Of a stretch of DNA of 64,000 bases, positions 17,173 through 30,690 are shown in pieces; position 1 is the stretch's first letter, and each line of letters opens with the position of its first letter. The stretch comes from Christensenella sp. (GTDB taxonomy: Bacteria > Bacillota > Clostridia > Christensenellales > UBA3700), in the NCBI GenBank assembly GCA_022784465.1, contig JALFUR010000004.1:203804-267803 (forward strand), in the 5' to 3' direction. The translations under genes and the position numbers were made by a program. Below the pieces are notes generated by a model. That model was not told the origin of the DNA. It made no database searches and saw only the letters and a program-made list of their open reading frames with translations.

Positions 17173-17201
17173 TTGAAAAAATATATTATTGCGTGTATAA
17201 T
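17173..17201 (+). promoter_or_regulatory. Sigma-A promoter of the ESCRT-like operon
   Basis: TTGAAA (17173-17178), a 17-base spacer and TATAAT (17196-17201). The elements fit vegetative sigma-A rather than the sporulation sigma factors encoded just upstream. Transcription should start near 17208, 27 bases before the first gene. Confidence 0.85.
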
Positions 17202-17234: not shown

Positions 17235-17999
17235 ATGAGAAGTAGTTCAAGACTAATTGGATTAAATGATACAGAATTATCTAATGATGATATTTTTGTA
17301 AGAAAAACGTTAGATAGGGCTAGAGACGATAGTAAAGTTGTTGTCGATGAAACTCATGTTGCAATTTTACTTAAAGAGGGGATTGCTCTTGAAACTCTAA
17401 AGCCTGGCGTTTATCCAATAGTAAATAAAGGAACATTGTTTCAAAGTAGCGAAAAGCTTAGTTCAATAAAAATAGAATTATTTTATATTTCAAAAACTGC
17501 AAAAATCAAAATATTATGGGGAACCCCTGTTTTATTTGACGTTCATGATCCTATCACAGATTCTTCTGCAAAGATGGGTGCTAGTGGCGAAATTGAAATT
17601 CGAGTTAAAAATCCACGTCAGTTTTATCTTGAAGTTGTTGGATCTAGTAAGTCGTTTACTGTAGATGATTTAAAAGATAGGATAAAGGGCAAAATGCTTG
17701 CAATTATTGAACCTACAATTGCTGATTTTATTGAAGAGAACAATATTCCATTAAGTAGAGTTTCTGAAGAAAAATTAGTTTTATCTAAATATGTTGAAAA
17801 GGTGCTTGCAAAAATGCTTTCACGTGAATATGGGTTAAATATTGATTCGTTCATTATAAATAGTACAAATATTCCATCATCAGATATAGATAAATCTTTA
17901 ATTGGTAGAAGTGAACAAAAAACTGTATGTCCTAATTGTGGATTAGTACTTGTAAGTGGCAGTATTTTTTGTAACAATTGCGGAACAAGGGTTAGATAG
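17235..17999 (+). CDS. SPFH/band-7-like protein with C-terminal zinc ribbon
   Basis: First gene of the seven-gene cassette. The 254-residue product has no signal peptide or membrane segment. Residues about 30-225 look like an SPFH (band 7/stomatin) domain of the soluble YdjI type: HVAILLKEGIALETLKPGVYPI, a GEIEIRVKNPRQFYLEVVG strand and a helical stretch ending in YGLNIDSFIIN. The C-terminus is a zinc ribbon with two CxxC pairs (CPNCG and CNNCG). SPFH proteins scaffold membrane microdomains; here the role is probably recruitment of the other cassette proteins to a membrane site, which is inference. AGAGG precedes ATG 17235. Confidence 0.75.
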   Translation: MRSSSRLIGLNDTELSNDDIFVRKTLDRARDDSKVVVDETHVAILLKEGIALETLKPGVYPIVNKGTLFQSSEKLSSIKIELFYISKTAKIKILWGTPVLFDVHDPITDSSAKMGASGEIEIRVKNPRQFYLEVVGSSKSFTVDDLKDRIKGKMLAIIEPTIADFIEENNIPLSRVSEEKLVLSKYVEKVLAKMLSREYGLNIDSFIINSTNIPSSDIDKSLIGRSEQKTVCPNCGLVLVSGSIFCNNCGTRVR

Positions 18000-18007
18000 G
18001 TTGCATT

Positions 18008-18382
18008 ATGGGACTATTAAGTATTTTTAGTAAAACAGGAAGAGATAAGAATATGGTTATAGATATTTCTAGGAGCCATATCTCTAAAGTGCTTGAAGAA
18101 AAAAATAGAATTGAATCTAATGCGGAAAAGATTGAACACTTAATGTTATTAGCAGAAAAATATCCAGATTTTTATGACCAATTGAGTGAGATATTTATTG
18201 ATGTGAAATATTCTAATCCAGTTGTAAATAATGACATAAAAATTCTTGATGAACAAATTGCTTCAAAGCTTGATGATTTAACACTACTTTTATCTAAAAC
18301 AAGAATAAGAAGCGATTTAGCAGTTAATCATTCATTAAGAGATATTAAAGAATTAATACACAAAAGAGAAATGAAAGAATAG
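18008..18382 (+). CDS. Small helical protein with MGLL N-terminus, ESCRT-like operon
   Basis: Function not recognised. The 124-residue product is predicted all-helical by its heptad-like pattern, soluble and highly charged. It begins MGLLSIFSK, an amphipathic start shared in form with the next two genes (MGFLSFLK, MGLFKSKQ) and with eukaryotic ESCRT-III proteins such as CHMP3. It could be a short ESCRT-III-like subunit or an adaptor. It follows the SPFH gene by eight bases and precedes the next gene by eight, so it is part of the operon. Confidence 0.6.
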   Translation: MGLLSIFSKTGRDKNMVIDISRSHISKVLEEKNRIESNAEKIEHLMLLAEKYPDFYDQLSEIFIDVKYSNPVVNNDIKILDEQIASKLDDLTLLLSKTRIRSDLAVNHSLRDIKELIHKREMKE

Positions 18383-18390
18383 GAGGAACC

Positions 18391-19011
18391 ATGGGATTTT
18401 TATCTTTCTTAAAATATAGAAAATTAAAAAGAGAAGATGTTATTGAATCTATTATTAAACTTGAAAAAGAACAAGAGATGATAGAAGATGGCATCGTAGA
18501 AAAAGAAGCAGAAATTAAAGAGCTTTTAGAAAAAGGAAAAAAAGAAAAGTCTCAAGATATTAAGTTGTTGTATGCAAAAAAGATTAATTTCTTAAAAACG
18601 CAGAAAGAGCGTGATGCTAAACGTGGAATGTTTTTGCTATATAACATTGATCAATTAAACAAATTGAAAACTGCAATAGAAGACAAGACTTTCTATGGTG
18701 ATGTAAGCAAGGATAAGATAAATAAATTGTTGCAAGATCCTGCAGGCTTAAGTGCATATTTAAATAAAGCGTTAAAGACTAGAATTAAAACAGAAGAAAA
18801 CCTTACAAATGCAGATGAAACATTTGCTGCTGTTGATATGCAATATGATGAAAATGAAAAGATTTACGGAGCAGGTCAAAATGATGACCAACTTCTTGCT
18901 ATGTTTGAAGAAACAGAAGCTGCTGATTCTGAAGCAGATATTCAAACTATAGACAATGAGGGTGTTGCCGGATTATATAAAACAAAACAAAAAGACATAG
19001 CGGAGGAGTAA
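18391..19011 (+). CDS. Putative ESCRT-III-like coiled-coil protein (first)
   Basis: The 206-residue product begins MGFLSFLKYRKLKRE, continues as a long basic helical hairpin (KEQEMIEDGIVEKEAEIKEL, then KKINFLKTQKERDAKRG) and ends in an acidic tail. Basic N-terminal core helices with an acidic C-terminal region are the overall plan of ESCRT-III (Snf7) proteins, which polymerise on membranes. No clear MIM motif is visible in its tail. GGAGG precedes ATG 18391 and the next gene follows after five bases. The ESCRT-III assignment rests on length, charge layout, N-terminus and neighbours; PspA/Vipp1-like or a plain coiled-coil protein are alternatives. Confidence 0.6.
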   Translation: MGFLSFLKYRKLKREDVIESIIKLEKEQEMIEDGIVEKEAEIKELLEKGKKEKSQDIKLLYAKKINFLKTQKERDAKRGMFLLYNIDQLNKLKTAIEDKTFYGDVSKDKINKLLQDPAGLSAYLNKALKTRIKTEENLTNADETFAAVDMQYDENEKIYGAGQNDDQLLAMFEETEAADSEADIQTIDNEGVAGLYKTKQKDIAEE

Positions 19012-19016
19012 AAGTT

Positions 19017-19607
19017 ATGGGATTATTTAAATCTAAACAAGAAAAAGAAATTGAAAAGAAAATGCTTGTAAAAAAGACAATTAATCAAATGAACAAGCAT
19101 ATTGCAATTCTTGAAGGACAAAAGAAAGTTTATCTTGATGCTGCAAAAAGAGCTAAAAAGCAAGGTCTTAAAGCTCAATATGATTTAGCTATTACAGGAT
19201 TAAAAATGACTCTTGCTCAACAAAAAAGAGCTCAAGAAATGCTATTAAACTTTGAAATTACTTCTCAACTAAAAGATATGACTCAAATGACTCATGATTT
19301 TCTTGGTGGATTATCTATTTTAAGTAAGGAAATGACAAAGTTAACAAATTCAAAGGAATTTGCTAAAGTTCAAGAACAATTTGAAGCTGCTATGGAAGGA
19401 GTACAAACTCAGTCAGAACAAATGGAAGTATATCTTGAAACTTCAGCAACAGAATTTGATGCAAATAAGGGAGACGCAGGTGCTATTTCTGATGACGAAA
19501 TCAATGCTCTTATTGACGAAGAAATTGGACAAGATGAAATTTCTTCAGATTCAATTGATGCGGAATTAGAAAAACTAAAGAAGAAAATGGCACAAAAAGA
19601 AAATTAG
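19017..19607 (+). CDS. Putative ESCRT-III-like protein with MIM1-like tail
   Basis: The 196-residue product reads like a CHMP/Vps2-type ESCRT-III protein. It begins MGLFKSKQEKEIEKK, close to the CHMP3 start. A helical core follows (KKVYLDAAKRAKKQGLKAQY, then KMTLAQQKRAQEMLL), with a middle segment (TQMTHDFLGGLSILSKEMT, FAKVQEQFEAAMEGV) matching the CHMP1 pattern around its fourth helix, an acidic stretch DDEINALIDEEI, and a final helix IDAELEKLKKKM that fits the MIM1 pattern LxxRLxxLK with I and E substitutions. Such tails bind the Vps4 MIT domain; the next gene encodes a MIT-like/AAA protein. It likely polymerises on the inner face of the membrane and is remodelled by that ATPase. Confidence 0.72.
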   Translation: MGLFKSKQEKEIEKKMLVKKTINQMNKHIAILEGQKKVYLDAAKRAKKQGLKAQYDLAITGLKMTLAQQKRAQEMLLNFEITSQLKDMTQMTHDFLGGLSILSKEMTKLTNSKEFAKVQEQFEAAMEGVQTQSEQMEVYLETSATEFDANKGDAGAISDDEINALIDEEIGQDEISSDSIDAELEKLKKKMAQKEN

Positions 19608-19623: not shown

Positions 19624-21087
19624 ATGGCTGAAGATACATCTTTTTTAAGAGATATTTTTAATGTCTACTATGAAAAGGCAAAAGTTGCTCATGCTAATGG
19701 AAATTTAGAATTAGCAAAGCGCAATTATTATTTGGCTGCTGAAACATTATTGAAAATTGCAAAAAATTCAACTCCAGCATTGAAAAAAGCTCAATATGAT
19801 AGAGCTTTGCGTTTGCAAAATATTGCTGAAGATTTAGAAAAACGTCAAATACCAAAATCTTATTCAACAAAACCAGTTTCTTCTTCATCAAATACTTTTA
19901 ATCCAGAATTAAAAGAACAAAACGAAGAAGAAGATAATGGTAAAGAATGGCAATCTGCTGAAATACCTAATTTGAAATTTTCGGATGTTGCAGGTCTTGA
20001 TGATGTAAAAAAGACTATAACAACAAGAGTAATTAATCCATTAAAATATCCAGATAAATATGCAAAATACGGTAAAAAGAGCGGTGGTGGCGTTTTGCTT
20101 TATGGACCTCCAGGAACAGGAAAAACCATGATCGCTAAAGCTATAGCTGGTGAGGTTGGAGCTACATTTTTTGCTGTTAAAGGTTCAGATATCATGTCTA
20201 AATGGGTAGGTGAATCAGAAAAAAATATTAGTTCATTGTTTGAGGCAGCAAGAAAAGAACCAATGGCAATTATATTTATCGACGAGATGGATAGTTTGTT
20301 TGGTGCTAGAGGAAGAGATACTCATAACGATAAAAGAGTTAATGAGTTCTTGCAACAAATCGATGGCTTTGCTTCAAAAGCTGAAAACTTGTTATTGCTT
20401 GGTGCTACAAATAGGCCTTGGGATGTAGACTCTGCTGCAGTAAGATCTGGAAGATTTTCAGAAAAAATCTATGTTACTTTGCCAGATGATAAAGCAAGAG
20501 AATTTTTATTAAGGAAATATTTGGGAAATGCGCCTTTAGATAAAGACATTAATTGGGAAATGCTTGTTAAGTTTACAAAAGGTTATTCTGGTGCAGATAT
20601 TGCTGAAGTATGTGATAAAGCAAAGGAAGAACCACTAAATAAATACATAGAAACTAATCAAGAAGTTCCAGTTTCAATGATTAATGTTTTAGAGGCAATT
20701 AAGAAAGTTAAACCAACTGTTAAAGAAAAAGATATTAAAGTATTTGACGATTATGCAGGTATAACTTCAAATGTAGAAAAAGAGCCAGTTTTAAATGAAA
20801 AAGAAGAAGATGATGTATTTGTTACATTTGCTTCGCGCAATGTTTCAATATTCCCAGGAACTTATCCTGTTTTAAAATTTACTCTTTCAAAAGATTTTGA
20901 AAAAGTTTATATAAATGTAGATGGTTCAAATTACATTTGTAAAAAAGAATTAAATAGTTGGATAAGTGAACCAATTAAAATTGACGAATCTGGAGAATAT
21001 GAAGTTATCATTTCTTCTCAAAACGAAATAGCTAGGGAAAAAATAAAATTTACAAAAGGACTAGAAGAAGACGATTTAGGCCTATAA
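19624..21087 (+). CDS. Vps4-like AAA ATPase with N-terminal MIT-like domain
   Basis: Meiotic-clade-like AAA ATPase. Residues about 5-75 form a MIT-like three-helix bundle (AKVAHANGNLELAKRNYY, then YDRALRLQNIAEDLEK); 75-105 is a polar linker; the AAA domain has Walker A GPPGTGKT (161-168), pore region SKWVGESEK, Walker B IIFIDEMD (216-223), sensor GATNRPWDVD (260-269) and an arginine finger in SGRF (275-278). MIT-linker-AAA is the Vps4 plan; Vps4 disassembles ESCRT-III polymers. Unlike Vps4, an extra beta-rich region of about 110 residues follows (about 375-487). The gene comes 16 bases after the MIM1-bearing ESCRT-III-like gene. FtsH-like origin is unlikely: no membrane segment, no protease motif. 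Confidence 0.8.
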   Translation: MAEDTSFLRDIFNVYYEKAKVAHANGNLELAKRNYYLAAETLLKIAKNSTPALKKAQYDRALRLQNIAEDLEKRQIPKSYSTKPVSSSSNTFNPELKEQNEEEDNGKEWQSAEIPNLKFSDVAGLDDVKKTITTRVINPLKYPDKYAKYGKKSGGGVLLYGPPGTGKTMIAKAIAGEVGATFFAVKGSDIMSKWVGESEKNISSLFEAARKEPMAIIFIDEMDSLFGARGRDTHNDKRVNEFLQQIDGFASKAENLLLLGATNRPWDVDSAAVRSGRFSEKIYVTLPDDKAREFLLRKYLGNAPLDKDINWEMLVKFTKGYSGADIAEVCDKAKEEPLNKYIETNQEVPVSMINVLEAIKKVKPTVKEKDIKVFDDYAGITSNVEKEPVLNEKEEDDVFVTFASRNVSIFPGTYPVLKFTLSKDFEKVYINVDGSNYICKKELNSWISEPIKIDESGEYEVIISSQNEIAREKIKFTKGLEEDDLGL

Positions 21088-21096
21088 AAGGGTTGT

Positions 21097-22539
21097 ATGA
21101 GCGACAAAACTATAGACAAGTTAAAAGCTAATTTTGATGGTATGATTGTAAAGAAATCTTCTTTGCAAAATGTTTTCGCATCTTTGTCTTTGCCAGCTTT
21201 TATTCGAGACTGGTTTTTAAAAAAATATGCAGATAAAGACGGATGCGTTAATGTAAATTTTGTTTTAGAAAAAATAAAAGATGTTATGCCTAGAAAAAAT
21301 GAATGGAATGCAATTTTAGATAAATTGCTTTCTGGAGAAAGAGTAAGGTTTTTAACAAAACTATCTGTCTCAATAGATATAAAGACAAAAAAATACACTT
21401 TTTCTTTGCCAGATTTTGGAATAACAGATAAAGAAACTTACATATCACAATCTGTGTGGGAAAAACACAAAAAAGCATTACTTGTCACAGATGGAGAATT
21501 TTGGGGCATCGTTGATTTAGAATATTTAAATATAGATAATGGCAAGAAAACTGAAGGAAAAATAGCTCTTGTCGACTTTAAAGATTTTAGACCATATAAA
21601 ATTGATTTAGATTTTTATAAAGCTGCAAGAAAAAATTTTGAATTAGATGAGTGGATTGATGTTCTACTTGGTGCTATTGACTATAATGCTAATGGCTTTA
21701 AGAGCGAATTAAATAAGTTAACCATGCTTTCTAGATTGCTTCCTTTTGTTGAAAAAAGATTAAACCTAATTGAACTTGCTCCAAAAGGAACAGGAAAAAG
21801 TTATATTTTCTCTCAAATTTCCAAGAAAGGATGGCTAGTTAGCGGTGGTGTAATGACTAGATCAAAAATGTTTTACGATATGAGCAAAAAACAGGAAGGT
21901 TTAGTAAGTTATTATGACTATGTTGCTTTAGATGAAATTTCTACAATAAAGTTCCCAGATATAAATGAGATGAGAGGAGCTTTAAAAGGTTATTTAGAAA
22001 GTGGTTCATATAATGTTGGAAATAAAGCAGGAATGGGCGATGCTGGCCTTATGATTTTAGGAAATATTCGTTCTGAAAATATGGATGTCAATTTAAATAT
22101 GTTTGAAGAATTACCATCTTTATTTGAAGACACAGCTTTAATAGACAGATTGCATGGTTTTATTAAAGGATGGGATGTTCCTAGAATGAATGAGAATATG
22201 AAAATCAACGATTGGGGATTAAATACAGAATATTTTTCTGAAATAATGCATGCTTTAAGAGAAGATGTAATTCAAAAATCCCTTGTTGATCAATTAGTTG
22301 AAGTTCCACTTGAGGCTGACACAAGAGATACAAATGCTGTAAAGAAAATAGCAACAGCATATATGAAATTATTGTTTCCACATTATTCGACAGTTGATGA
22401 AGTGGATAAAGAATTATTTAAAAAGTATTGTTTAGAGCCTGCTGTTGAAATGAGAAAAATAATAAAAATACAGTTAGGAATAATGGATATAGAATATAAG
22501 AAAAAACCAATGCAAGAATACAAAATAAAAGAAGGATAA
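21097..22539 (+). CDS. BrxL-like AAA+ ATPase lacking a Lon protease domain
   Basis: The 480-residue product resembles the ATPase part of BrxL, the Lon-like protein of BREX phage-defence systems: Walker A LIELAPKGTGKS (228-235 for the loop), then LVSGGVMTRSKMFYDM, GLVSYYDYVALDEIS (Walker B, D279-E280), and a GNIRSENM sensor-like segment. BrxL proteins are usually near 680 residues with a C-terminal Lon-type domain; here the chain ends after the AAA+ region, so it is probably a motor without protease activity. No other BREX gene (pglX, brxC, pglZ) is present. It lies nine bases after the Vps4-like gene and almost touches the TIR gene. Confidence 0.72.
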   Translation: MSDKTIDKLKANFDGMIVKKSSLQNVFASLSLPAFIRDWFLKKYADKDGCVNVNFVLEKIKDVMPRKNEWNAILDKLLSGERVRFLTKLSVSIDIKTKKYTFSLPDFGITDKETYISQSVWEKHKKALLVTDGEFWGIVDLEYLNIDNGKKTEGKIALVDFKDFRPYKIDLDFYKAARKNFELDEWIDVLLGAIDYNANGFKSELNKLTMLSRLLPFVEKRLNLIELAPKGTGKSYIFSQISKKGWLVSGGVMTRSKMFYDMSKKQEGLVSYYDYVALDEISTIKFPDINEMRGALKGYLESGSYNVGNKAGMGDAGLMILGNIRSENMDVNLNMFEELPSLFEDTALIDRLHGFIKGWDVPRMNENMKINDWGLNTEYFSEIMHALREDVIQKSLVDQLVEVPLEADTRDTNAVKKIATAYMKLLFPHYSTVDEVDKELFKKYCLEPAVEMRKIIKIQLGIMDIEYKKKPMQEYKIKEG

Positions 22540-22540
22540 G

Positions 22541-24631
22541 ATGAAATTAGAAGCTTTTCAATGTCCAGTTTGTTTATCGACACATTTTAAGGTAGAAGGA
22601 GACAACTATCAATGTTTGTCATGCGGTAATGTATACACAAAAAGACAAGCAGATAGCCAAATGTTCATTGATCTTAGAATTGCTAATAGTTTTAGACAAT
22701 TTGCAGAGTTTTCAAAAGCTAAATCTATGTATGAGGAGATTATTGCAAAGTATCCTGAGGAAGATTTGTCTTTAGCATATTGGGGCTTATTGCTATGTGA
22801 TCAACAAGTTCTAATTGAAACAGATAATAATGGAGAATTATTCCCATCATTTTATAAAGTAAAAGAACAACCAATAAACACATCTTCAGTTTATAGAATG
22901 TTCTATAACTATGTAACAAAAAATTCAAAAGAAAAATTAAAGATTTATGCAGAAAGATTGAATGTTATTGAAAACGCTAGACAAAAGGCCGTTGTTATTG
23001 AGCAAACAACAAAACCTTATGACGTGTTCTTATGTTTTAAGAAAACTCAATTGCATTCGGATTTTGTTACAAAAGATTTTGATTTAGCTAATGAGATATA
23101 TAACGGAATATCAGATAAATATAAAGTATTTTATTCAGAAAAGTCTTTAAAGGGCATTAGAATAAGAGAATATGAACCAAATATATATTATGGATTACAT
23201 ACGGCAAAGGTAATGATTCTAATTTGTTCTAAAAAAGAATTTTTAGAGTCCCATTGGATGAAAAATGAATGGAAAAGATTTTTAGAAATCAACAAGAATA
23301 ATCCAGCAGGTTCAAGATGTATTATTCCAATTTTTGTAGATAATTTTTCACCAGATGATTTGCCGATGGAATTATCTCATTTGCAAGGTTTAAAATATGG
23401 TATTTCTTTGCTTGGAGATATAGAAAGAGAATTAGATTCAATTATTCATCCTGTAGATAAGGATGCTGAACAACAAAAACAAATTAATTCTAATACTGCA
23501 GCTATTGAAAAAATCACAAAGCTTTTAAAGGAAGGCCAAACAGATAAGCCAGTATTTAACACTAAAATTGATTCTTATTTGAAACTTATAAGAGTTCAAA
23601 TTGAAGATTTAGGGGATTTTGAAGAAGCAGAAGATTTAATAGATAGAGTTCAACATATTGATGCTGAAAATTATATGGCTTGGTATTATAGGTTGCTTGT
23701 TGAATTTAAATCTAGTGATATGAATAATCTTGTTATGCACTCAAATTATAAAGAAAGCGTAAATTATAGATTATTAGTTAAATATGCAAGGGATTCAATA
23801 GCTAAAGATTTTGTTGCTTCAATAGATAAAGCAAGAGAAGATTATTTAGTAAAAACTGCAGAAATTGTTAATAAAAAACTAGAGGAATTAGATAATAATA
23901 AAAGGCCAAATAAGGAAGATATAAATACGATTCGTATGTTTTATGAATCTTTAGATAAAGAAGCAAGAGCTTATGTAAGAAATTTGAAAACAATTGTTAC
24001 AAATGCTTATCAAAAGATTCAAGACAATAAAATAGGAGATTTCAATTCTATATTAACTAAGGTTGAAAAGAAGAACCATCCAAACTATGACGATATCATA
24101 CAAATAAAAGATGAATATAAATCTTTATCAAAAGAAGAAAAGGAAAAAGTTGGCAATTACAAACAAGTAATTGTTGAGGCATCAAATAAGATGAAACAAA
24201 ACAAAGTTCAAATTGTTCAACAAGCCTTAGATGATTTAGATCAAGCGGTTTTACCTCAAAGAGAGGAAATTATTAAAGTTGAGAAAAAATATAAAGCTTT
24301 AGAGGATGAATACAAACAATATGTTCGCAACTTTAATGAAATAATGGCTAGAGCTTATGATAAAAAATATAAAAATGATGCAAAAGTATTAAACGAATAT
24401 TTAACTAAGCTTCCTTCAGAAAAGGTTGCAAGTAGAGAACTATATATAAAATTTGAAAATAGATATAGAGCTCTGCCAAGAAAATATAGAGAGCTTGTAA
24501 CAAATATTGAGTATCTAGATAATTATTATGACAAATTAATTCAACAAGAGAAAAAAGTTGAAGTAAAACAAAATGATAAACAAGATAATTCTCAACCTAA
24601 AAAGAAAAATTGGTTTTGGAATAAAGGATAA
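22541..24631 (+). CDS. Zinc-ribbon/TIR-domain protein with four helical repeats
   Basis: The 696-residue product starts with a zinc ribbon (C8xxC11 and C25xxC28), followed by a TPR-like helical stretch (about 40-95). Residues about 159-275 form a TIR domain: PYDVFLCFKKTQ, DLANEIYNGISDKYKVFYSE, then SKKEFLESHWMKNEW, where E243 is the candidate catalytic glutamate of NAD-cleaving TIRs. The C-terminal half has four related 55-60-residue helical repeats (pattern Y..L..E.K..V.N) and ends in a basic tail. TIR proteins act as NADases or signal producers in bacterial immunity. As the last cassette gene it may be the effector. ATG 22541 directly follows the BrxL-like stop. Confidence 0.78.
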   Translation: MKLEAFQCPVCLSTHFKVEGDNYQCLSCGNVYTKRQADSQMFIDLRIANSFRQFAEFSKAKSMYEEIIAKYPEEDLSLAYWGLLLCDQQVLIETDNNGELFPSFYKVKEQPINTSSVYRMFYNYVTKNSKEKLKIYAERLNVIENARQKAVVIEQTTKPYDVFLCFKKTQLHSDFVTKDFDLANEIYNGISDKYKVFYSEKSLKGIRIREYEPNIYYGLHTAKVMILICSKKEFLESHWMKNEWKRFLEINKNNPAGSRCIIPIFVDNFSPDDLPMELSHLQGLKYGISLLGDIERELDSIIHPVDKDAEQQKQINSNTAAIEKITKLLKEGQTDKPVFNTKIDSYLKLIRVQIEDLGDFEEAEDLIDRVQHIDAENYMAWYYRLLVEFKSSDMNNLVMHSNYKESVNYRLLVKYARDSIAKDFVASIDKAREDYLVKTAEIVNKKLEELDNNKRPNKEDINTIRMFYESLDKEARAYVRNLKTIVTNAYQKIQDNKIGDFNSILTKVEKKNHPNYDDIIQIKDEYKSLSKEEKEKVGNYKQVIVEASNKMKQNKVQIVQQALDDLDQAVLPQREEIIKVEKKYKALEDEYKQYVRNFNEIMARAYDKKYKNDAKVLNEYLTKLPSEKVASRELYIKFENRYRALPRKYRELVTNIEYLDNYYDKLIQQEKKVEVKQNDKQDNSQPKKKNWFWNKG

Positions 24632-26092: not shown

Positions 26093-28225
26093 ATGAAACC
26101 TTTATTAAAATTAGAAAAAATAAGTAAAGTATATACAACTAATAACACAGTTGCTATTGGACTTAGAAATATTGATCTAGAGTTTAATATTGGCGAGTTT
26201 GTTACAATTACAGGAAGTAGCGGCTCTGGTAAAACAACATTGTTAAATGTGATTAGTGGTATAGATACATACGAAGAAGGCGAATTATACTTTGAGGGAA
26301 ATTCTACTTCGCACTTTACTCAACAAGAATGGGAAAAATATAGAATCGAAAATATTTCTTTTATTTTCCAGGATTACAACATTTTAGATAGTTTTACTGT
26401 ACTTGAAAATGTAGAATTTGCATTGCTTCATATTGAAAATCCAATTGAAAGGCGAAAAAAGGCCATAGAATTAATAAAAAAGGTTGGTTTGTATTCTCAC
26501 TTGAACCATAAAGGAAGTAAGCTTTCTGGTGGCCAAAAACAAAGAACAGTAATAGCAAGAGCTTTAGCAAAAGAAAGCCCAATTATTCTTGCAGATGAAC
26601 CAACGGGAAATTTAGACAGTAAAAGCGCAAAGGAAATCGTTCAATTATTAAAAGATATTTCTGATGAAAAATTAGTTATTGTTGTAACTCATAATGCAGA
26701 GCAATTTTCTGATGTTGCTACAAGAAATATTAGATTGTTTGATGGTTCAGTTGTAGATGATGAAGAATATGTCAAAATTGAACCAAGAGAATGTATAAAA
26801 ATTGAACAACCAAAACTAAAAAGTACTTTTTTAAGTGGTTGTTTATTAGGTATAAAAAGATTTAAATCAAGACCAAAATTTACAACATTTATTGTTTTGA
26901 TGCTGTTTGTAGCGATTTTCTTTTCATTTTTAATATGTGCCTCTGAAAACTATGATGTTTCTTCGTCAAAAAACATATTTAATCATGTTGATGGTAGGGT
27001 GATTATAGCAAAAACGGATGGGTCAATTATTTATAAAGAAGATTTGGAAAAAATTTCAAATATTAAAGATTATGTTTTAGATGATAATGTTCTTGAATTA
27101 AAGACGCAACTGCGTTTTATGGATCAAGCTTTAGATTATAATAATTATTATTCTTTCACTTGTAATTATGATTATACAGGGCGAATAACTAAAGGTAGAA
27201 TACCTCAAAAAGATAATGAGGTCTTTTTGTGTGTTCCTCTTGTTTGTAAAGATGTGTGCGAGCAATATTTAAATAAGACAATTCAAATTGATAATTTTTC
27301 ATTCACATTAGTAGGATTTAAAACATATGTAGATAACACAAAGGATGGATATATTTATTTAACTAGACAAGGCTTTAATGATATGGCTATTACTAAAGCT
27401 ATAAACAACATTTATTACAATGTTGATACTTATTCTTCATTATCTTCTTCTAATGCAAATGAAGCCTATCTTTCTTTATGTTGGACTGAAGTAAAATATT
27501 TGCAAGTTGATCCTTCATTAAACAAGGGAGAAATACTAGTTCCAAACAAATTTAATATAATCTCAGTAGAGGATACTTCTTACGAGTTTAATTTAAATAG
27601 TAAAACAATTAGTATTAATTTTGATACAGTAATAAAAAGCGATGTTGAAGAAATATATATTTCTTTAGAAGATGCTTATGAAATTTATGAAAATAACTAT
27701 GATTTATTTAAAAATACTCAAGCTTCTATCTTTTATAAAAATGATTTAGAAGCAAAACAACATCTGCAGGAATTAGTTGATCTTGGATATGTTCCAATAA
27801 TGTCAAATTCAACACAAAAAACACAAAATTATTTGACTTTAATAACATCAATTTTCTCTATTATAGGATTAATTGTTGTGTTGTTGTTTATTGTTGTTTT
27901 CATGAACTTATGTACAAGAAGAAGTGTAGAAACAATGAAAAAAGATATTGCAATTTTTAGATCTATGGGTATTAATAGAAAAGTTATATCAATTTCTACA
28001 TATTTCCAATTATTGTTTAGTGGATTTATATCTATTTTATGTTTAGTGCCTGTATATTTCATTGCATATTTTACAAAGCTTTCATTATATGTATACTATT
28101 TGCCAATTCAATATTATTTATTGGTAGTTGCATGCATTGTATTTATCGTAATGATGCTTTCAATCAAATTTAATAAGAAATTATTCGCCGAAAGCATTAA
28201 GAATAATTTAAAGAGGGTATCATGA
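26093..28225 (+). CDS. MacB-like ABC transporter, fused ATPase and permease (first)
   Basis: The 710-residue protein joins an ABC ATPase (Walker A GSSGSGKTT, signature LSGGQKQR, Walker B IILADEPTGNLD; about 1-225) to an FtsX/MacB-type permease: one membrane segment at about 265-285, a large exterior domain and three C-terminal segments beginning LITSIFSIIGLIVVLLFIVVF. Such mechanotransmission transporters drive exterior work, lipoprotein handling or peptide resistance rather than simple transport. The fused order ATPase-permease is like MacB. The ribosome site TGAGGT is present, and the next paralogue overlaps by ATGA. Confidence 0.87.
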   Translation: MKPLLKLEKISKVYTTNNTVAIGLRNIDLEFNIGEFVTITGSSGSGKTTLLNVISGIDTYEEGELYFEGNSTSHFTQQEWEKYRIENISFIFQDYNILDSFTVLENVEFALLHIENPIERRKKAIELIKKVGLYSHLNHKGSKLSGGQKQRTVIARALAKESPIILADEPTGNLDSKSAKEIVQLLKDISDEKLVIVVTHNAEQFSDVATRNIRLFDGSVVDDEEYVKIEPRECIKIEQPKLKSTFLSGCLLGIKRFKSRPKFTTFIVLMLFVAIFFSFLICASENYDVSSSKNIFNHVDGRVIIAKTDGSIIYKEDLEKISNIKDYVLDDNVLELKTQLRFMDQALDYNNYYSFTCNYDYTGRITKGRIPQKDNEVFLCVPLVCKDVCEQYLNKTIQIDNFSFTLVGFKTYVDNTKDGYIYLTRQGFNDMAITKAINNIYYNVDTYSSLSSSNANEAYLSLCWTEVKYLQVDPSLNKGEILVPNKFNIISVEDTSYEFNLNSKTISINFDTVIKSDVEEIYISLEDAYEIYENNYDLFKNTQASIFYKNDLEAKQHLQELVDLGYVPIMSNSTQKTQNYLTLITSIFSIIGLIVVLLFIVVFMNLCTRRSVETMKKDIAIFRSMGINRKVISISTYFQLLFSGFISILCLVPVYFIAYFTKLSLYVYYLPIQYYLLVVACIVFIVMMLSIKFNKKLFAESIKNNLKRVS

Positions 28226-30690
28226 TTAACGTAAAAGGATTAAATAAATATTTTAATAAGAAACAATCTAATGAAATTCATGTAATCAATGATATTAATT
28301 TAAATTTGCCAAATAAGGGTTTAATTGCTCTTTTTGGTAAAAGTGGATGTGGTAAAACAACATTATTGAATGTTCTTGGCGGATTAGATGATTTTGATAA
28401 AGGTTCTATCTATATAGATGATGAACATTTTACTGCTAAAAATAGAGATTATATAAGAAATAAAAAGATTGGTTATATTTTCCAAAATTATTGTCTAGAT
28501 TCAAATTATTCAGTATTAGAAACAATTGAGAATGCTTTAATAATTGCTGGGGCTAATGCAAAAAGCAAAGATTTAAAAGAAAAAGCAATATTGGCATTAA
28601 AGTGTGTTGGCATGGAAAAGTATATGAACAGAAATGTAGTAGACTTGTCTGGTGGTCAACAGCAAAGAGTTGCAATAGCAAGAGCTATTGTAAAAGGTCC
28701 TAAAATTATTCTTGCAGATGAACCAACAGGGAATCTTGATGAAGAAAACACGATTCTTATTATGGATATTCTAAAAGAATTATCTAAAGATAAACTTGTT
28801 TTACTTGTTTCTCATGAACAGGATATTGTTGAACAATATGCAGATGAAATAATTCAAATTGTAGATGGTGAAGTTGAATCAGATATTTTAAATGATTCAA
28901 TAGATAATACATCCATAAAGGCATCTAAGAATATTTATTTAGAAGATTATGCAAAATCTACATTTGAACACAATGGAATTAAAATTGATTATTATGGTGA
29001 TGTTTATTCTAAAGCTACATCAATAATAATTGTGGCAAATAATGGAAAGCTATATTTAAAATCTAATGATAAAAACTTAAATATAGTAAATGATAGATCT
29101 GAAGTCCAAATATATGATCACAAAGAAAAGGTCAAAAAGAAAACAAATAGATATGATATTGAATCTTTTGATTCGATAAAATCTAAAAAGAATGGTAAAT
29201 TATATACCTTTAAACAGGCATTTAAAGATGGATTAAAAACGACATTTGGTAAGAAGAAAAAAGGACAAAAGAGTTTAAGAATTTTGTTTTCTTTGCTTGC
29301 CATCGTTGTAGTTTTCTTATCTGCAAAAATTGGTGCATCATATTATTCTCAAAACAGCTTAAATTATGTAGTTAATGAAAACGCTTTATATATAAATGCT
29401 TCTTATGATGACTATCTATCTATTTATGATAAAAACTATGGTGATGCATATTTTGTAAGAAATGGAAGAAGTTCTGTCTTTGAAGAATTTTATGTTCAGC
29501 CATCCGGTTTTGAAACTAGTGCTGAAATGAAAATTACTTTTAAAGCATTTAGTTTTCCTATGTCGATTTTTGGCGACAAAAAGATTATAGCGGGTCACCA
29601 AGTAAAAGAAAAGAATGAAGTTTATATTTCATCAAAGACTGCTAATGAAATAATTAATAATTCAAAATATAGCTTTATAAATTCTTACAATTCTTTAATT
29701 GGAATGACTTTAAAAGAATCATCTATGTTTGATATTTCATCTATTCCAAATAACGACTATCTTTACAACTATGACAAGTTTGTTATTGCAGGAATATATA
29801 ATTCCAATGAAAGTGAAATATGTATACCCGATGCCTTTTTCCAAGATGCAGAATATTATGTATCTTTATCAAATTATAATAGCCTTTATATATGTTCTGT
29901 AGATAAATGCAAATTGGATTTAAATTTACAAAAAGGTGAGGCAGTATTAATAAAATATCAAGGATATACAGGAGATGATTCTAAAATTGATGTATTGACA
30001 TATAATGCAGACGATGTTTTTGATTCATATGAAATAGTACAAGTTATAGAGAACGATGGTTATGGAGATAATCTTTTAATAATAAATGAACAAGATTATA
30101 AAAAATACTATTTTTATAATATGCAATGGCAATCTTTATATAATGAATATAATCGAAATTCAGTAATAATATACGAGGATGATGAAAGCGAAAGACAAAA
30201 TATCTACAATGAGATAAAAAATCTTTATCCATCTGTAAAAGTTATGAATAAACAAGAATATGTCGAGCAAGAGAAAGATATTAATAATCAAGATAATAGC
30301 ATTTATTATATTATGGTTGCTTTAGTGTTGCTAGTAATTGCAATTGTTATCTTCTTTGTAATGAGAACTAATTTGTTCAATAAGATAAAAGAAATTGGTA
30401 TAGCTAGAGCTATTGGGGTAAATAAATCGAATATAATATTTAGATTCTTTGTAGAATCATTAGCTTTAGTTACAACATTAGTATTTTTTGTTCATTTAAT
30501 AATTAGTATTATATTCTGGAAGTTGATGACATTTGGTACAACAATATATACAACATTCTATTATCCTATTTCGTTATATTTAATTTCACTTGCAATATTG
30601 TTCGCTGTAATATCTTTAGCTGCGATTTTGCCTTCAGCCATGTTGCTAAGAAAAACTCCTGCGCAATTATTGTCTAAATACGATATATAA
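28222..30690 (+). CDS. MacB-like ABC transporter, fused ATPase and permease (second)
   Basis: Paralogue of the preceding gene (822 residues). The ATPase part shows GKSGCGKTT, LSGGQQQR and IILADEPTGNLD. A linker of about 130 residues with low similarity to the first protein precedes the first membrane segment (about 355-370, ILFSLLAIVVVFLSA), followed by the exterior domain and three C-terminal segments ending in a QLLSKYDI tail. Since each chain carries one ATPase and one permease, the two probably form a heterodimeric transporter. ATG 28222 overlaps the first gene. Confidence 0.87.
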   Translation: MINVKGLNKYFNKKQSNEIHVINDINLNLPNKGLIALFGKSGCGKTTLLNVLGGLDDFDKGSIYIDDEHFTAKNRDYIRNKKIGYIFQNYCLDSNYSVLETIENALIIAGANAKSKDLKEKAILALKCVGMEKYMNRNVVDLSGGQQQRVAIARAIVKGPKIILADEPTGNLDEENTILIMDILKELSKDKLVLLVSHEQDIVEQYADEIIQIVDGEVESDILNDSIDNTSIKASKNIYLEDYAKSTFEHNGIKIDYYGDVYSKATSIIIVANNGKLYLKSNDKNLNIVNDRSEVQIYDHKEKVKKKTNRYDIESFDSIKSKKNGKLYTFKQAFKDGLKTTFGKKKKGQKSLRILFSLLAIVVVFLSAKIGASYYSQNSLNYVVNENALYINASYDDYLSIYDKNYGDAYFVRNGRSSVFEEFYVQPSGFETSAEMKITFKAFSFPMSIFGDKKIIAGHQVKEKNEVYISSKTANEIINNSKYSFINSYNSLIGMTLKESSMFDISSIPNNDYLYNYDKFVIAGIYNSNESEICIPDAFFQDAEYYVSLSNYNSLYICSVDKCKLDLNLQKGEAVLIKYQGYTGDDSKIDVLTYNADDVFDSYEIVQVIENDGYGDNLLIINEQDYKKYYFYNMQWQSLYNEYNRNSVIIYEDDESERQNIYNEIKNLYPSVKVMNKQEYVEQEKDINNQDNSIYYIMVALVLLVIAIVIFFVMRTNLFNKIKEIGIARAIGVNKSNIIFRFFVESLALVTTLVFFVHLIISIIFWKLMTFGTTIYTTFYYPISLYLISLAILFAVISLAAILPSAMLLRKTPAQLLSKYDI

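Follow-up and report, generated by a model that had tools for sequence, protein, structure and literature searches.

A Vps4-like MIT-AAA ATPase encoded beside ESCRT-III-type proteins in a conserved Clostridia operon: a likely motor for ESCRT-III disassembly in bacteria

The window, i.e. the whole stretch of 64,000 nucleotides that was analysed, is part of one long contig (JALFUR010000004.1) of the genome (1.59 Mb, 98% complete) of Christensenella sp., a Clostridia bacterium from the gut. It holds a tight operon of seven genes, all on the + strand and separated by gaps of 1–16 bases, which encode in this order: an SPFH protein with a C-terminal zinc ribbon (17235–17999; Pfam Band_7_1, E 2e-17), the small conserved protein ORF124 (18008–18382), which has a hydrophobic N-terminus in several of its relatives, the two proteins E3a (18391–19011) and E3b (19017–19607), an ATPase of 487 amino acids (19624–21087), a BrxL-like AAA ATPase (21097–22539) and a zinc ribbon-TPR-TIR protein (22541–24631; Pfam TIR_2, E 1e-8). 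The operon is flanked by sigG and a small ylmC-like gene on one side and by nrdR on the other. A promoter-like site lies 34 bases before the SPFH gene (17173–17201, + strand) and is recognised by its consensus matches only (11/12), the total of such sites in the region not being above that of shuffled sequences; a terminator-like hairpin is found upstream of it (17138). The genes ftsZ, ftsA, sigE/sigG and nrdR were read from the list of open reading frames of the window. The G+C content of the operon (0.295) is near that of the window (0.283), and this, together with the flanking ftsZ, sigE/sigG and nrdR, indicates that the operon is bacterial DNA. Further downstream, beyond nrdR and a small lipoprotein-like gene, there are two adjoining ABC transporter fusion genes (26093–30690).

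The ATPase gene begins with an ATG, and the stretch AAGAGGT, similar to a ribosome site, is placed 5–11 bases upstream. Pfam matches of the protein were AAA (residues 157–285, E 1e-41), AAA_lid_3 and Vps4_C (PF09336; residues 347–377, 23.9 bits versus a cut-off of 21.3). The NCBIfam profile CdvC (NF041006) was aligned over the whole MIT-AAA length, residues 8–377 of the ATPase corresponding to profile positions 7–364 (E 2e-66), with a score of 224 bits versus the curated equivalog cut-off of 650. An AlphaFold2 model, built on 46 homologues, displays three helices of 20–23 residues (5–24, 28–47 and 51–73; pLDDT about 95), which are joined by a disordered linker to the AAA domain; a beta domain follows. 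The parts distinguished, all on the + strand, are an MIT-like three-helix bundle, seen in the model helices and in MIT profile matches (residues 5–73; 19636–19842), a low-complexity linker mostly with pLDDT below 60 (residues 74–110; 19843–19953), the AAA domain with its lid and Vps4_C-type C-terminal helix, as defined by Pfam and the trees (residues 111–378; 19954–20757), and a C-terminal beta domain (residues 398–487; 20815–21084) with eight strands between residues 400 and 478 (pLDDT about 95), for which the profile search found no family match. The preliminary description of this DNA, made from its letters, had read the order bundle, linker, AAA as the plan of Vps4, and the Pfam matches, the CdvC alignment and the model bear this out. 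It had also counted about 110 residues in the beta-rich C-terminus: the beta-rich character stands, while the extension proper has about 90 residues, the larger figure including linker.

The motifs quoted in that description (SKWVGESEK, FIDEMDSL, GATNRPWDVD) are all present, and the family conserves the residues of both Walker motifs (A and B), of the sensor and of the pore loop. In the Walker A motif GPPGTGKT (residues 161–168; 20104–20127), G161 and PGTGK 163–167 are invariant in the alignment of 46 sequences, with P162 and T168 conserved in at least 90%. In pore loop 1, SKWVGESE (residues 192–199; 20197–20220), K193 and G196 are invariant in the same alignment, with W194 and V195 conserved in at least 90%, and the loop is in register with SKWMGESE/SKWLGEAE of yeast and archaeal Vps4. 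On the other hand, the arginine-finger region reads R-S-G-R-F; Vps4 has RRRF there, and Cdc48/FtsH are the closer match. There is neither a protease motif nor the HEXXH of the FtsH zinc protease in the ATPase sequence. The family recurs at 40–68% identity across 45 aligned relatives, so the observation is more than a chance resemblance in one protein. Variants of about 700 amino acids, composed of MIT, a CbbX/SpoVK-like AAA and a Vps4-like AAA, were observed in eight loci (L017, L018, L019, L021, L022, L036, L150 and L151).

Concerning the N-terminus, the point at issue was whether it is MIT or TPR. Taken alone, the N-terminus of the window ATPase did not match Pfam MIT, and neither MIT nor TPR matched it well. 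Among 20 family N-termini, MIT was the Pfam family most often matched (4/20, best E 1.1e-4), versus 3/20 for TPR_8 (best E 0.16). A profile of these 20 N-termini was run against PDB chains: the top row was a designed repeat protein (7rdr), and the matches included 2mpk (E 0.001), Sulfolobus Vps4 2w2u (0.004), 2v6y (0.17) and SKD1 1wr0 (0.34), which we take to be MIT domains (table labels: chitin synthase, p60 katanin, SKD1). With the same profile, Vps4 N-termini from a halophile, Chlorohelix and Thermococcus scored better than 1000 of 1000 shuffles, and 4lcb and human VPS4B were above 998 of 1000, while yeast Vps4 was no outlier (80 of 1000 shuffles were as good). Profile-profile comparison with three MIT domains gave a weak match (probability 39%, E 3e-4). 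Altogether, the identification of the N-terminus as MIT is well supported by these comparisons, if not proven, and the preliminary alternative of a TPR fold is the less fitting of the two.

The gene immediately before the ATPase, E3b, had been called ESCRT-III-like in the preliminary description. The window E3b alone gave no match to Pfam Snf7 (PF03357), which matched 19 of 63 members of the E3b family (best E 2.8e-8); among ten members scanned singly, those of L082 (34.0 bits) and L084 (27.3 bits) reached the curated cut-off of 27.3. In a search of 72,556 plasmids, the window E3b had a single match (E 5e-4), to a gene of Thermococcus peptonophilus whose operon also encodes MIT-Vps4. The protein of this gene is itself Snf7-like (E 4e-4, below the cut-off), and the E3b family profile covers it end to end with 56 bits, the best of 9000 shuffles being 12.3. 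The E3b model (mean pLDDT 76) contains helices 7–48, 52–110, 113–149, 159–174 and 177–195, in the order of ESCRT-III. With this model, CdvB and CdvB2 occupied ranks 1–4 of 350,542 chains in Foldseek, at an E value (0.047) that is not significant by itself, and VIA-align gave Z 11 to Shrub, yet near 10 to unrelated helical proteins. The C-terminal helix of E3b is conserved as I-D-x-E-[ILM]-x-x-[LVI]-[RK]-K-K-I, a motif that we take to resemble an MIM1 tail. Judged by these sequence relationships, E3b is a homologue of ESCRT-III (Snf7), and the preliminary designation was correct, with relatives that reach the Pfam cut-off.

The other candidate, E3a, is probably a second ESCRT-III-type protein. 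Its family profile detected a Chlorohelix protein encoded beside Vps4 (21.8 bits, with 0 of 1000 shuffles as high). It also detected an ESCRT-III-type protein of Thermococcus; the score of 14.4 bits was above its 1000 shuffles, but is to be read with 1 of 9000 shuffles elsewhere having reached 15.2. E3a had no significant match in Pfam or PDB and none to E3b, and the E3a and E3b profiles had no sequence match in the PDB. The idea that they are near paralogues was rejected, as profile comparison found nothing. PspA/IM30 (PF04012) had no match in the whole host genome, the controls in B. subtilis and E. coli being positive. Two E3b-type ESCRT-III domains were seen as parts of larger proteins: in one of 648 amino acids the domain is fused to an FtsK/SpoIIIE-like DNA translocase (L148:10509–12452, − strand), and in one of 556 amino acids to a RuvB-like AAA domain (L149:3969–5636, − strand), both motors being assigned by motif reading.

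The distribution of the system was studied by scanning 84,980 species genomes for E3b, which yielded 81 stretches matching the pattern, from 62 contigs. The ATPase was present in all 62, on the same strand as E3b, at less than 500 bases from it in 50 contigs and within 3.9 kb in the rest; the ATPase family has, in consequence, the ESCRT-III neighbour looked for by Makarova et al. Co-occurrence was also high for E3a (58/62), SPFH (57/62) and ORF124 (56/62), several of the absences being at contig ends. In a separate search of the order, the ATPase was within about 1.5 kb of E3b in 24 of 30 loci, and in 4/4 of the remaining loci that were refetched wider (all but L116 and L117). E3b occurred in 37 of 396 genomes of the order, in 19 of 142 genera and at least nine families, i.e. 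with a patchy pattern. Among 200 genomes of the order, 20 had relatives of the ATPase at E ≤1e-60; double-AAA variants are counted here, and other AAA proteins may be too. In a sample of the phylum, E3b was found in its own genome only (1/398), so the system is narrow within that sample. The contigs with a name were mostly from uncultured Clostridia and Christensenellaceae, with one Izemoplasma. PspA/IM30 is nearly absent from the order (2/396 genomes). A Chlorohelix plasmid (Chloroflexota; L144, 1–4655) encodes two small helical proteins, MIT-Vps4 and a serine/threonine kinase; its Vps4 nests inside the euryarchaeal group (100/99), and this operon looks like a transfer from archaea. The best reading of the data is a bacterial ESCRT-III/Vps4 module that is patchy in one Clostridia order, reaches Izemoplasma, and occurs separately on the Chloroflexota plasmid.

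Another observation concerns the C-terminal extension of the ATPase. It is present in 8 of 62 contigs, exactly the eight that have BrxL, and neither was found in the other 54; sequence beyond the ATPase extends for 1.5 kb in 48 of these and for 6 kb in 37. This amounts to four independent pairs on the tree, 4/4 in agreement, too few for significance; in the tree count, the extension was entered for both traits, as extension and BrxL are identical in those rows. The preliminary suggestion that the beta-rich C-terminus might recognise the SPFH protein was discarded: SPFH is nearly universal (57/62), so it does not account for an extension whose distribution is that of BrxL. The beta-rich C-terminus would rather be a docking domain for the BrxL branch. 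The BrxL-like protein of the window is matched by the Pfam and NCBIfam BrxL profiles in the N-terminal and ATPase domains only. It lacks the Lon protease part, no other BREX marker was found, and PglZ had no match in the 98% complete genome; it is therefore a BrxL outside BREX. As to the last gene of the operon, a TIR-type domain was detected with a domain profile in 34 of 62 contigs, and the KNEW motif of the TIR proteins, presumably the position of the catalytic glutamate, is kept in all seven aligned (that of the window and six others). Many contigs contain equivalents of an operon protein of 1276 amino acids (L042:11754–15581), which reads as a zinc ribbon, a degenerate TIR, TPRs, transmembrane helices and outer GLUG-like repeats, and is a possible surface receptor.

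The place of the AAA domain was determined in three maximum-likelihood trees of 62, 59 and 62 rows, the last two with ATAD1, and all without Asgard Vps4. L131, L010, L011 and the second AAA of L028 were left out of the 59-row tree, the AU tests and the last 62-row tree, and the latter was further run without L130, L133, L015 and L023, the reasons being a long branch, a duplicate branch or thinning of FtsH. The AAA domain falls together with Vps4 of archaea and of eukaryotes, katanin and ATAD1, and is split from Cdc48 D1/D2, PAN and FtsH with support 100/98 (59 rows) and 100/96 (last 62 rows). Thus, the meiotic affinity read from the motifs in the preliminary description agrees with the phylogeny, in which FtsH is far away; nesting within Vps4 finds no support there, since the bacterial clade is a sister group in all three trees, the archaeo-eukaryotic members forming a group without it (87/81, last tree). 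In AU tests, a single clade of the bacterial proteins with FtsH was marginally rejected (p 0.034), as was their union with Cdc48 D2 (p 0.036); a single clade with archaeal CdvC was not rejected (p 0.148), nor was it recovered in the tree. By plain pairwise score the nearest solved AAA is p97 D2, and a fold search with the whole ATPase model gave p97-type AAA chains only among the best 50 matches. Given the sister placement, the marginal AU rejections and p97 D2 as the nearest structure, it can be said that 'works like Vps4' is a stronger statement for the ATPase than 'is a Vps4'.

What can be read directly from the sequence is that the N-terminus is MIT-like, that the AAA engine is intact and has a pore loop of the Vps4 type, and that E3b, a homologue of ESCRT-III, shares the operon with E3a, probably a second one, and with the SPFH protein. 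It seems reasonable to interpret the ATPase as a motor of the Vps4 type that takes ESCRT-III apart in a bacterial system, which we consider likely. By analogy with the known families, E3b (and E3a) would form polymers on the cytoplasmic side of the cell membrane, in a position set by the SPFH scaffold and ORF124. The MIT domain would bind the conserved C-terminal helix of E3b, and the hexameric ATPase would thread subunits through its pore, so that the polymer would be remodelled or stripped. The beta-rich C-terminus could act as an accessory docking domain, tracking BrxL and not SPFH, and the TIR and BrxL proteins might be swappable outputs or sensors. The job of the system is probably not cell division, since ftsZ and ftsA are in the window, but rather membrane repair or the response to envelope stress, in an order with hardly any PspA; in our opinion, membrane maintenance under stress is the most likely, possibly with an immune output.

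The alternatives to this interpretation differ in weight. One of them, which we hold to be possible without favouring it, is that the ATPase belongs to a bacterial lineage, sister to the meiotic AAA proteins, which acts on the neighbouring ESCRT-III-like proteins without descending directly from Vps4; the MIT-like bundle could have been recruited independently, as the TPRs are in a related Streptomyces protein. The sister position in all three trees is in its favour, as is the fact that this Streptomyces single-AAA protein (with N-terminal TPR and a TPR-protein neighbour) falls on the same side, on a long branch. However, the matches of the N-terminus to MIT domains of archaeal Vps4 exceed those of shuffles, and E3b has a homologue in an archaeal ESCRT-III whose gene lies next to that of Vps4, so the ATPase-E3b pair looks inherited together. 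Much further from the evidence is an FtsH- or IetA-like bacterial AAA with a Vps4 likeness due to convergence in a conserved domain. The AAA domain does score with the FtsH profile (207 bits) and with IetA (124–139 bits), but the protein has no protease domain and no HEXXH, the FtsH of its own genome and related FtsH proteins are far off in the tree (100/100), and the joint clade is the one rejected by the AU test; we consider this explanation very improbable. As the system has been described as archaeal and eukaryotic only, by Makarova et al. (PMC10936438), archaeal DNA binned by contamination into a bacterial genome should also be considered. Against it, the genome is of Clostridia type and one long contig carries the operon together with the flanking sigG and nrdR, the G+C content of the operon is close to that of the window and the system recurs in 62 contigs from many assemblies, by which contamination is refuted in practice.

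The remaining alternative concerns the role of the operon, and can be compatible with a Vps4-type motor. It proposes chiefly an anti-phage or conflict system, with a conserved membrane-polymer core whose outputs vary (TIR, BrxL or a DNA motor); the ATPase would then reset or trigger the polymer. BrxL and TIR proteins are defence proteins in other systems. Here, the TIR-type domains of 34 contigs, the KNEW kept in the seven aligned, the BrxL of eight contigs, the fusions of the ESCRT-III domain to FtsK-like and RuvB-like motors in two genomes and the patchy spread over at least nine families all point in this direction. On the other side, PADLOC recognises in this operon only BrxL and a distant IetA-type AAA, and SPFH together with ESCRT-III-superfamily proteins is also seen in non-defence systems. 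A mainly defensive role is thus a tentative proposal, more doubtful than probable. Of similarly speculative standing is a broader view, in which a full bacterial ESCRT-III/Vps4 machine would be a platform for membrane surveillance or immunity. Its constant core would comprise SPFH, ORF124, the two ESCRT-III types and the Vps4-type motor. Its interchangeable sensors and outputs might include the TIR proteins, the surface-repeat membrane receptors, BrxL and the ESCRT-III-fused FtsK-like or RuvB-like motors, the beta domain of the motor docking the BrxL branch.

Returning to the disassembly motor as the preferred reading, its meaning depends on what has been described before. According to Makarova et al. 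(2024; PMC10936438), the ESCRT-III/Vps4 pair is confined to archaea and eukaryotes, and an SPFH protein with a zinc ribbon occurs in Meth_adaptin systems. The available sections of Frohn et al. (2022; PMC8970359) speak of archaea only. Ravi et al. (2024; PMC11237479) report transfers of VPS4-like AAA to bacteria, with snf7 displaced by a TPR/6TM protein, and bacterial Snf7 homologues with a transmembrane segment beside a two-AAA protein. Our search of the literature, which covered sources other than preprints and most subscription journals, gave no report of ESCRT-III and Vps4 together in Bacillota. The statement that the pair is restricted to archaea and eukaryotes would change with a conserved operon of bacteria that has both components and is seen in 62 contigs. 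Bacteria may also have a working ESCRT-III/Vps4 version with new partner proteins; they would gain a membrane machine of the Snf7 type, driven by Vps4 and different from PspA/Vipp1. This raises the question of whether the system came from archaea or represents an ancient sister branch, and offers an ESCRT of few parts with new partners (SPFH, BrxL, TIR) that is testable in a bacterial host.

Compared to known systems, the operon shares with BREX a BrxL-like protein, here adjoining the ATPase, and is set apart from it by the lack of PglZ. With the cases of Ravi et al. (PMC11237479) it shares a VPS4-like AAA in bacteria, but snf7 was displaced there while the ESCRT-III genes are kept here, and the layout of their bacterial Snf7 with a two-AAA protein differs from that of this operon. 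The PspA-YdjI membrane-stress operon of Bacillus subtilis, which PMC10936438 and PMC11237479 cite, likewise places a YdjI-type SPFH-zinc ribbon protein beside an ESCRT-III-superfamily protein; unlike it, the present operon has an E3b of Snf7 type, not PspA type, and a Vps4-type ATPase. The resemblance to the crenarchaeal CdvB/CdvC division system lies in the full-length MIT-AAA alignment to CdvC and in CdvB as the top fold match of E3b, whereas here no CdvA was seen, FtsZ is in the window and the curated CdvC score was missed. The euryarchaeal ESCRT operons, such as that of the Thermococcus peptonophilus plasmid (L141), are similar in combining MIT-Vps4 and several small ESCRT-III proteins in one operon, with a Snf7-like protein matched end to end by E3b and another matched more weakly by E3a. 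The present operon differs from them in belonging to Bacillota, in having an AAA domain outside the archaeal clade and no kinase or phosphatase, and in the addition of ORF124, BrxL, TIR proteins and a beta-rich C-terminal domain.
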